From Planctomycetota bacterium (GTDB lineage: Bacteria > Planctomycetota > UBA1135 > JADKAF01): a stretch of 64,000 nucleotides of DNA. The stretch is from the NCBI GenBank assembly GCA_016793245.1, contig JAEUHW010000057.1:1-64000 (forward strand). The letters are read 5' to 3'. Shown here piece by piece: positions 55,908 to 58,725 of this stretch. Numbering within the stretch: position 1 is the stretch's first letter; the number at the start of each line of letters is the position of its first letter. Below the pieces are notes generated by a model, which saw only the letters and a list, made by a program, of their open reading frames with translations, did no database searches and was not told the DNA's origin. The position numbers and the translations under genes were made by a program.

Positions 55908-56942
55908 TTACTCGGAGATCGCGGCCGCGACGAGGCAGCCCTTCGCGACCGTGTTCAGCGGCTCGGAGGCGTGGCGGATCTCGCGGACCTGGATCGGGAA
56001 GGAGATCTTGGCGAACTCCTCGCGGAAGGCCTTGATGAAGCCGCCGACCATCGAGGTGCCGCCGGAGCAGACGATCGAGACCGGCTTGCTGAACGAAGGC
56101 ATGTTGCGCTGGTTGGCGAAGCGCGCCTTGATGTTCTGGATCGTGTAGGAGATCAGATTGCGATAGTAGATCGCGATCGCCTCTTCCTCACGCCCCTGCG
56201 GGTTCGTGATGTCGACGCCCTTCTCCTTGATCATCGTCGCCTTCGAGCGATTGATGCCGAGCACGCCGGCGACGTTCTTGTCGATCCAGTCGCCGCCGCG
56301 GGCGACCGAGAACGAGATCGTCGGGATCGTGCGGTAGCAGACGCAGGCGTTCACCATGCCGCCGCCGAACGAGATGCCGATGCCCGTGAAGTCCTCTTCG
56401 GCGAGGTCGGAGAAGACCACCGCGTGGCCTTCGTTGATCGCGCGGGGCGTGTAGCCCATCTTGCGCAGCATGCCTTCGAAGAGGCCCTGGTGATAGACGA
56501 TGTTGTTGTCGCAGTCGACCGACTCGGCCGGCACGGAGAAGCAGACCGTCTCGCCCTGCTTCGTGGGCTTGCCGAGGCACTTCTCGATGATGAGCTGGAT
56601 CATCGGCAGCGCATCGACTTCGTTCGGGCTGATCAGACCGTCGCACATCGGGCGACGCGTCTCGCGGCCGAAGATGTTCGCGAGCTCGAACGCCGACTCT
56701 CCGATCACGACGATCTTCTCGCCGTGAACGACGTAGGGCACGCCGAGCTTCGTCAGCATGTCCTTGCTGTAGATATCGGAGTCGATGTCGAGGAACGCGT
56801 TCCGCTCGAGCTTGATCTTGACTCCCGTACGCGCGTCCTGGAGACCCGCGACGATGTTGGCCGTGCCGACGTCGAGGCCCTTGCCGAGCAGCAGGCTCTG
56901 GCCCTGGGTCGTCGTCGCCGTGGAAGAGGTTCCTTCGCTCAC
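55908..56942 (-). CDS. Actin-like ATPase (MreB/ParM-type)
   Basis: This encodes 344 residues from a GTG at 56942, preceded by AGGAG. Actin motifs are in order: phosphate-1 'GLDVGTANI' (22-30), 'CFSVPAESVD' (134-143), connect-1-like 'INEGHAVVFSDL' (169-180), phosphate-2 'GIGISFGGGMVN' (187-198), adenosine motif 'VCSGGTSMVGGF' (291-302), and 'EPLNTVAKGCLVAA' (327-340). It has the length of MreB, but the sequence differs from classical MreB in the first motif (T-A-N-I) and at the C-terminus. It would form ATP-driven filaments. The coiled-coil protein gene lies just upstream, 164 bp away, so the two may form one system. Confidence 0.85.
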   Translation of the reverse strand: MSEGTSSTATTTQGQSLLLGKGLDVGTANIVAGLQDARTGVKIKLERNAFLDIDSDIYSKDMLTKLGVPYVVHGEKIVVIGESAFELANIFGRETRRPMCDGLISPNEVDALPMIQLIIEKCLGKPTKQGETVCFSVPAESVDCDNNIVYHQGLFEGMLRKMGYTPRAINEGHAVVFSDLAEEDFTGIGISFGGGMVNACVCYRTIPTISFSVARGGDWIDKNVAGVLGINRSKATMIKEKGVDITNPQGREEEAIAIYYRNLISYTIQNIKARFANQRNMPSFSKPVSIVCSGGTSMVGGFIKAFREEFAKISFPIQVREIRHASEPLNTVAKGCLVAAAISE

Positions 56943-57106
56943 CGCAGCACTCCTTTGCTTGGCTTCGCTCGCCGGTGCGGCTCAGGCCGCCGCGGCGCCA
57001 TCCGATTCACTCTCTGGTCGCGGGGTCTACCGAGCTCCGCGACCTTATTCTTCGGCGCGACCTCGCGCGCGCCTGTAGGCGCGCGGGGAGCCGCGCATGT
57101 TCTGCC

Positions 57107-58471
57107 CTAGCTCTCGCCCTGGCTCGCCTTCAAGCGCATGGCCTTCATGCGCGCCACGGCGTCCTGGATGCTCCCGCTCTCGCGCTCCTTCACCTCGACT
57201 TGCCCGAGGTTGGACTCCATGCTCGAGCTCGAGGCGAAGAGACCGTCGAAGCTGATGCCCGAGCCGACCTCGGGACCGGAGCTCATGCCGAGCTTGCGGC
57301 CCAGCTTGTCGAGCTTCTTCTCCATCGCCTCGCCGAGGCTCTCCATCATCTTGGAAGCGTCCATCGCGGGCGCTTGCGCCGCGGCAGGAGGCGCCTTCTC
57401 GACGGTGTCCTTCAGTTGGCGCAGCTCGGCCAGGATCGTGCTCATGGCTTGGTTGCTCGCCGCTTCGGCGCCGCGCAAGGCGTTCTGCTGGGAGCCCATC
57501 TCGTGGCGCTGGCTCTCGAGGTCCGCGCGCTCGCGCTGGAGCGCGCGCCGCGCGTCCTCGAGCTCGCCTCTCGCCGCGGCGAGCTCCTGCTCCAGTCGAC
57601 CGCGGTCCTCGAGCTCGCGCGCAACCTCGCCGGCGGTGCCGCCGCGCGAGATCGTCTCGGCGCGGCGCTGCCCCTTGCTGCGCTCATGTTCGACGAATCG
57701 GCGCAGCACGTTCTCGAGATCCTCGAGCGTGGGCGAACTCAGCACGCGCTGCAGCTCTCCCCGCGCTTGCTGGATGGTGTCCTCGAGCGCGCGCTTCTCC
57801 CCGACTTCCTGGCGCAGCGTCTCGCGTTCGTGCTCCAGCGCCTTCGCTGCCGAGTCGCGTTCCGCCTTCAGCGCAGCGAGCTCGGCCTCGGCGCGCTGCT
57901 GCGCGCGCCGAGCATCGTCGCGCTCGCGCGACGCTTGCTCCAAGCGCTGAGCCAGCTCGCGCGACTGCGCGTCGAGCTCTTCCAGCTCGCGATGCAGCGC
58001 TTCGGCGCGCTGCGCCTCCTCGCTGCGTTCGCGCTCGGAGAAGCCGCGCAGCACCTGCTCCAGGTCCTCGAGCGCCGGCGATCCGAGCACGCGCTGCAGC
58101 TCTTCGCGCGCGCGCTGCACCGTCTCTTCGAGCGCCTGCTTCTCGGCAACCTCCGAGCGCAGCGCTTCGCGCTCCTGCTCGACGGCGGCCTTCTCGGCGC
58201 GGACCTCGCGCAGCTCCTGCTCGCGCTCGGCGACGAGGTTCTGGAACTCGACGCGCGAGGCCTCGATGAGGGCGTTCGTGTCCACGGTCGAGGAGTTGCG
58301 CCGCGCTTCGATGGCGCGCGCCACTGCCTCTTCGATCAACGCGGAGATCTGCTTCGCGTTGATCACCTTCACGCGGCTCCGCCCCTGCGAGCGCAGCTCG
58401 TCGACGCTGGTGGTGGTGCAGTTGCGCTCGAGCACCCCGCGCACGTCGATCACCTTGTCTTGCTGCTGCAT
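57107..58471 (-). CDS. Coiled-coil protein with duplicated segment, actin neighbour
   Basis: This encodes 454 residues from the ATG at 58471, preceded by GAGAGGGAAC. Residues 1-55 form a small N-terminal domain ('VIDVRGVLERNCTTTSVDELRSQG'). About 55-350 is a long, highly charged coiled coil, with a tandem duplication. One copy reads 'VAEKQALEETVQRAREELQRVLGSPALEDLEQVLRGF', the other 'VGEKRALEDTIQQARGELQRVLSSPTLEDLENVLRRF'. The C-terminus is Ser/Met-rich and ends in 'VARMKAMRLKASQGES'. No family is recognised. It could be a filament partner or membrane-linked scaffold for the actin-like ATPase; there is no helix that would cross the membrane. Confidence 0.75.
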   Translation of the reverse strand: MQQQDKVIDVRGVLERNCTTTSVDELRSQGRSRVKVINAKQISALIEEAVARAIEARRNSSTVDTNALIEASRVEFQNLVAEREQELREVRAEKAAVEQEREALRSEVAEKQALEETVQRAREELQRVLGSPALEDLEQVLRGFSERERSEEAQRAEALHRELEELDAQSRELAQRLEQASRERDDARRAQQRAEAELAALKAERDSAAKALEHERETLRQEVGEKRALEDTIQQARGELQRVLSSPTLEDLENVLRRFVEHERSKGQRRAETISRGGTAGEVARELEDRGRLEQELAAARGELEDARRALQRERADLESQRHEMGSQQNALRGAEAASNQAMSTILAELRQLKDTVEKAPPAAAQAPAMDASKMMESLGEAMEKKLDKLGRKLGMSSGPEVGSGISFDGLFASSSSMESNLGQVEVKERESGSIQDAVARMKAMRLKASQGES

Positions 58472-58584
58472 GTTCCCTCTCGCGCCGATCCGAGCCCGGG
58501 CGGGGGATCCCCGCCGCACACCCTTCTTCGGTCGCGAGGCTCCCTCGAGCTTGAGCGCGGATCCCCCCTCGCGCGCGGAGGGAG

Positions 58585-58635
58585 AAAAAACAGCCCGGGC
58601 TCCGCTCGACCGCTGCGGTCGTTCGGAGCCCGGGC
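58585..58635 (-). terminator. Rho-independent terminator after ssb
   Basis: A 12-bp perfect stem (58593-58604 with 58624-58635) has an inner short hairpin (GACCGC/GCGGTC) in its loop. On the minus strand it is followed by TGTTTTTT. It ends the ssb transcript at about 90 bp after the stop, so the coiled-coil and actin genes are separately transcribed. Confidence 0.9.
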
Positions 58636-58725
58636 GCTGCTTGCCTCGGCGGGCGAGCGGATCAGGACAGTGCCGGCTCGGAAAGGGGCCGGCTCGGAAA
58701 GGGGCCGGCTCGAAAAGCGGCCGGA

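Follow-up and report, generated by a model that had tools for sequence, protein, structure and literature searches.

The window, a stretch of 64,000 nucleotides (contig C264, positions 1-64000) from a planctomycete genome of 7.57 Mb in 458 contigs, encodes an actin-like protein of the Volactin family and a coiled-coil adaptor. The two probably form a two-gene filament module in which the C-terminal tail of the adaptor binds the actin; any specific cellular role for this module is proposed with much less confidence. Both open reading frames lie on the minus strand, the adaptor gene 164 nt upstream of the actin gene (Table 1), and they constitute a conserved pair, as the initial annotation of this DNA had supposed. 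Volactin has so far been described only in salt-loving archaea. Here it was common in Planctomycetota and was also found in Omnitrophota and in phages.

Table 1. Features of the volactin-adaptor locus, in window positions.
Feature	Position	Strand	Basis
Volactin-family actin-like protein, 344 aa, GTG start	55908..56942	-	Pfam PF25216; haloarchaeal identity; actin fold of a homologue
Adaptor (N-terminal domain, coiled coil, C-terminal tail), 454 aa, ATG at 58471	57107..58471	-	Upstream of volactin in relatives
Predicted volactin-binding C-terminal tail (MESNLGQVEVKERESGSIQDAVARMKAMR...)	57110..57220	-	Tail profile matches; raised pLDDT in a homologous pair
Coil repeat, copy 2, offset 115 residues	57650..57874	-	Repeat comparison
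Coil repeat, copy 1	57995..58219	-	43/75 identities to copy 2
Adaptor N-terminal domain, common to the paralogous adaptor of a second actin	58220..58459	-	Profile A3 match, 1.4e-26
Intrinsic-terminator-like hairpin and T run, between ssb and the adaptor gene	58585..58635	-	Read by eye from the sequence

The actin-like gene matched the Pfam Volactin profile at E 2.8e-88 and 297 bits (cut-off 35), the match spanning positions 3-321 of the 321 in the profile. A tblastn search retrieved plasmid-borne homologues from Natrinema and Haloarcula, 41.5% and 40.9% identical over 94% of the query. A search of the genome with the MreB_Mbl profile (PF06723) gave no match at this gene; it placed a canonical MreB on contig C422 and detected further MreB-like genes. 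Only one volactin copy is present in the genome. The protein had been noted to differ from typical MreB, and an identity as MreB was rejected, since PF06723 misses the gene, a serine stands at phosphate 2 and the neighbouring genes are ssb and a gene for a beta-helix protein. By its sequence, the window actin is a bacterial member of the Volactin family and not an MreB. The initial annotation had also credited it with all nucleotide motifs, which stood only in part. The window protein retains the phosphate-1 Asp and the putative catalytic Glu, as do 118 and 117, respectively, of the 119 volactin-family proteins compared. At phosphate 2, where actins and MreB have Asp, the window protein and 118 of the 119 have Ser in its place. 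Because of this replacement, ATP turnover may be altered in volactin.

An AlphaFold2 model of a close homologue (the L042 pair, described below) had the actin fold, with pLDDT mostly above 90 in the volactin core. With this model, Foldseek retrieved MreB (E 4e-14) and a MamK filament (5.5e-12) at about 18% identity. The MamK structures were the nearest solved sequences, and the profile reached MamK at 3.4e-7 only. In a tree of 128 volactin-family proteins and MreB, built by a quick method and with some long branches, the window protein fell within a large clade of planctomycete proteins. The haloarchaeal, Omnitrophota and phage members formed separate branches inside the volactin family, the haloarchaeal ones being placed among those of planctomycetes.

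The mechanical open reading frame of the adaptor gene begins at 58519. Its N-terminal domain, of about 80 residues, has the consensus ..TLDELxxxGRxRVRVIRAxxIAxMIxEAVxxA.. and is predicted to be helical up to the coil, except for an extended stretch at the VRVI motif. No known structure or profile was matched to this domain in fold and sequence searches. The coil contains 14 Gly and Pro in 285 residues. The two-fold repeat described in it earlier is real, its diagonal scoring 142, whereas none of 200 shuffled coils exceeded 65. No comparable repeat was found in the other family members examined (next scores 83 and 79, at short offsets), and it looks like a recent local duplication private to the window genome. 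Matches of the coil to SMC, intermediate-filament and similar proteins were dismissed as compositional and far below cut-offs (PF00038, 16.5 bits; cut-off 40). In the tail, an ESN..(I/V)EVK segment leads into a basic, amphipathic helix that finishes at about LxxLKxLKGG. The tail consensus is about ESN(L/M)DN(I/V)EVK..GGIAANLARLKKLKGG or, in a longer form, about LESNLDNVEVKEKxAGGIAANLARLKKLKGG.

The identified neighbours of the pair are ssb, which is the next gene upstream, and the beta-helix protein. No ParR-like domain was matched, and the locus is neither a standard mreBCD nor a standard parMR cassette, in agreement with the initial annotation. The terminator-like hairpin between ssb and the adaptor gene suggests that the adaptor and volactin genes are a unit of their own. 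A tandem repeat (16 bp x 3.3, 58672-58724) also lies between ssb and the adaptor gene; no comparable repeat was conserved upstream in relatives.

Volactin was detected in 30 of the 61 genomes of the window genome's order, and the adaptor N-terminal domain in 36. Two of the 30 were set aside, one (G027) because the locus was cut by a contig end and the other (G057) because its copy was divergent and had a partner of phage type. In the latter (L145 / L033, contig G057:C252) the volactin was 44% identical to that of the window and followed a partner of huge-phage type; this contig probably belongs to a phage and was co-binned with the genome. In each of the 28 testable genomes the adaptor gene lay directly upstream on the same strand. 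Loss or displacement of the adaptor gene in most relatives had been named beforehand as the outcome that would count against the pair, and the reverse was found. Families f4 and f8 of the order lacked a cellular volactin pair, and several f8 genomes kept the second adaptor only. Among Planctomycetota, volactin scored above cut-off in 112 of 294 genomes, and a partner with both N-terminal domain and tail occurred in at least 23 GTDB families.

The upstream partner was classified at 159 volactin loci with room upstream, a redundant set. It had both N-terminal domain and tail at 100 loci, the tail only at 6, the N-terminal domain only at 1, and neither at 52. The coil spacer between N-terminal domain and tail ranged from 73 to 489 residues, and the tail ended 0-6 residues from the C-terminus in 89 of the 100 partners that had both. 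Conserved ends and a free middle are expected of a tether with two binding ends, and we infer that the adaptor may be such a tether.

The 52 loci with neither element are mostly accounted for by other arrangements, namely second tandem volactin copies, Omnitrophota, haloarchaea, phages, families f30 and f32, and loci of a second subfamily. All 15 volactins read in family f30 had long in-frame N-terminal extensions and no separate partner; the extensions were coil-rich in L140, L152 and L158. The volactin relatives in family f32 (L107, L110, L123, L125, L127-L134) are degenerate, and the phosphate-1 Asp is missing from some of them. Their genes begin within, or almost directly next to, the gene for a large SLBB-type protein. 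These SLBB-type proteins usually have a mid-protein transmembrane helix and often LLERALLAM-like terminal helices. The second subfamily (subfamily B; L137-L139, L141) lies downstream of a protein that starts with MWIVKN..LRG and consists of a beta-rich domain followed by helices; the L139 copy had no match at Pfam cut-offs and no PHROGs family. We propose no adaptor-type tail for the SLBB-type and MWIVKN-type neighbours, in which the tail profile was not significant.

Contact between tail and actin was examined in the L042 pair, in which both genes lie in the same frame and can be translated as one artificial chain of tail, linker and volactin, with Gly at the stops. This read-through chain was modelled with AlphaFold2 from an alignment of 65 rows, one phage-record row being left out. 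Tail residues 61-90 had mean pLDDT of 84/74/65, with a strand at 70-74 and a helix at 78-87; pLDDT was mostly below 50 in the linker (91-126) and in residues 31-42. The model hints that the tail packs on volactin. The tail profile scored 21.5 bits in G275/L106 and 9.4 bits in G125/L079, with 0 of 1000 shuffles as good in either case. In Omnitrophota, the protein encoded just after two tandem volactins has an adaptor-like tail (E 1.9e-6 and 6e-8), which, like the matches in G275/L106 and G125/L079, gives independent support for the link between tail and volactin. The Omnitrophota loci (L071, L072) encode a ParA-like ATPase, a coiled-coil protein, a volactin, a second, N-extended volactin and the tail protein, together with another coiled-coil protein, whose N-terminal part includes a hydrophobic segment. 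Conservation and structure prediction together favour the earlier suggestion that the C-terminal tail is the part that would touch the actin.

The window genome has a second copy of the N-terminal domain (C264:154809-155018, profile 1.9e-15) in an adaptor encoded directly upstream of a MreB/MamK-like actin (C264:153182-154171, Pfam MreB_Mbl 63 bits; locus L002). Among 20 further second-copy loci that were fetched, such an actin lay directly downstream in 15 and was absent nearby in five, all from f8. The second-copy adaptors share a different tail, GIASIYR.VQGLD...KK.LM..IFEANL.LQ. Since the paralogous adaptor combines a different tail with a different actin, the N-terminal domain and coil are the common part and the tail goes with the actin, which suggests that each adaptor tail matches its actin. 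The paralogous pair further suggests that one adaptor scaffold was re-tailed for two different actins in one cell.

In Natrinema and Haloarcula, a membrane protein with DUF7139 is encoded upstream of volactin, and its soluble tail contains two related segments, SSGVDQQVAGLKGLKGG and SSTVDDQTAKLKELR. A first tail scan placed Natrinema at E about 20 among 16,489 frames. Against shuffled sequences, a better though moderate measure, 0 of 1000 were as good for the Natrinema protein and 12 of 1000 for that of Haloarcula, so an adaptor-type tail on the haloarchaeal protein is weakly supported. Among the control genomes, DUF7139 and Volactin exceeded their cut-offs in Haloferax volcanii alone. According to the available part of the volactin paper (PMC10869688), H. 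volcanii volactin forms dynamic filaments in vivo with a role in cell shape, and the filament tips bind the membrane by factors given there as unknown; that part of the paper names no volactin-binding factor. This tip binding would be accounted for by a membrane protein that bears a volactin tail. The volactin literature searched, in the parts available, describes neither bacterial volactins nor a volactin partner, and the literature searched makes no mention of DUF7139, PF23600 or PF25216.

Volactins with 43% and 34% identity to the window protein are encoded by two huge phages (L168, LR745208.1; L169, LR756511.1), whose genomes are 485 and 595 kb long. In L168 the genes around volactin probably encode virion proteins, and the protein that precedes it has 207 aa and a C-terminus weakly resembling the tail. 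In IMG/VR, 91 of 102 candidate stretches encoded relatives of the volactin of marine T4-like phages, and 80 loci were kept. In these phages (L170-L172, L193-L272) the volactin gene is part of the head-gene cluster and close to those of gp23-like major head proteins; the major head protein motif was present in 70 of the 82 IMG/VR contigs analysed, and PHROGs identified the head protein in L171. The phage volactins tested against PHROGs matched no family. In 23 of the IMG/VR contigs analysed, a single-pass membrane protein ending in KTQKxKLRxLR is encoded upstream of volactin. In shuffle tests, the tail of this protein came closer to the volactin tail than 99.4-99.9% of the shuffled sequences, which is no more than suggestive of a volactin-type tail on the phage membrane protein.

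In the mechanism that we propose, volactin is predicted to bind ATP and to polymerise in the cytoplasm. The adaptor is predicted to self-associate through its coil, to be multivalent and to hold volactin directly by its conserved C-terminal tail, and its N-terminal domain would attach the filament to a cargo or anchor. The coil would be a spacer of freely changing length, lengthened in the window genome by the internal duplication. Candidate roles are cytoplasmic organisation, cell shape or cargo positioning. A broader reading, which we advance tentatively and without favouring it, is that the volactins of bacteria, archaea and phages share a recognition code, a short C-terminal tail on an adjacent adaptor whose N-terminal part has been swapped by lineage. 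That part would be a coiled-coil domain in Planctomycetota, a DUF7139 multi-pass membrane protein in haloarchaea, a single-pass membrane protein in marine T4-like phages and a fusion in one planctomycete family. If the code is indeed shared, volactin filaments in haloarchaea would be anchored to the membrane at their tips by the DUF7139 protein. With a partner and a binding tail now proposed, the question of what binds volactin becomes testable.

The layout of the adaptor, with a folded N-terminus and a C-terminal actin-binding tail, is that of ParR, and the pair could accordingly segregate DNA, the N-terminal domain binding a centromere-like site and the tail a filament end, so that DNA is pushed apart. 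A ParA-like gene heads the Omnitrophota cluster, and the 16-bp tandem repeat upstream of the window adaptor gene would fit such a site. However, upstream repeats of that kind are not conserved in relatives, the model of the N-terminal domain matched no ribbon-helix-helix fold, and the volactin-adaptor pairs were all found in planctomycete genome assemblies, plasmid matches being haloarchaeal only. A ParR-like N-terminal domain with centromere iterons was rejected for lack of a fold or profile match and of conserved repeats, and we consider DNA segregation unlikely.

We rate as improbable that the module replaces FtsZ or serves envelope growth, as an alternative divisome or elongasome. FtsZ and tubulin were absent from all 61 genomes of the order, and the presence of a canonical MreB would leave other actins free for other roles. 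Yet families f4 and f8 also lack FtsZ and have no cellular-type volactin, so volactin is not needed for division without FtsZ; the genes identified next to the window pair include none for the cell wall or for division. A role as FtsZ substitute was rejected because, throughout the order, FtsZ is missing from genomes with and without volactin alike. Very improbable, in our view, is a crescentin-like reading, with the coiled-coil protein as an independent, intermediate-filament-like scaffold whose gene is merely co-transcribed with that of the actin. The coil is long and has low-level similarity to intermediate-filament and SMC coils, but this is compositional and below all cut-offs, and it is in the length and sequence of its coil that the protein is least conserved, while its tail is well kept. 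Strict adjacency, and an N-terminal domain that pairs with two different actins and has actin-specific tails, also argue against independence and for a joint volactin-adaptor module.

The pair resembles MreB-RodZ in its actin fold, MreB being among the nearest fold matches in the PDB, but it lacks mreC and mreD, its actin lacks the phosphate-2 Asp, and the canonical MreB is encoded elsewhere. ParM-ParR consists of an actin-like ATPase and an adjacent adaptor with a C-terminal tail that contacts the actin. The layout of adjacent actin and adaptor is common to ParM-ParR, Alp7A/Alp7R, AlfA/AlfB and the window pair. Unlike ParM-ParR, the window pair has an actin of a different family, is not on plasmids, has no conserved centromere-like repeats and has no recognised ribbon-helix-helix domain. 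Magnetotactic actin-like proteins work with Mad coiled-coil proteins, and contact between Mad25 and Mad28 was found by two-hybrid analysis (PMC12748827, PMC12713370). MamK and Mad28 resemble the window pair as actin-like proteins that work with coiled-coil proteins, but they are magnetosome-specific, and this system is not known to share the N-terminal domain or the tail of the adaptor. The sequence comparison covered MamK; no magnetosome gene was recognised among the neighbours of the pair. The closest counterpart is volactin itself. VolA of Haloferax volcanii (HVO_2015; Nat Commun 2024, PMC10869688) belongs to PF25216, which the window protein matches over its full length, and the Natrinema and Haloarcula volactins share the Ser of the window protein at phosphate 2. 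In contrast to the haloarchaeal system, that of the window is bacterial, and its partner is a soluble coiled-coil adaptor in place of the DUF7139 membrane protein.
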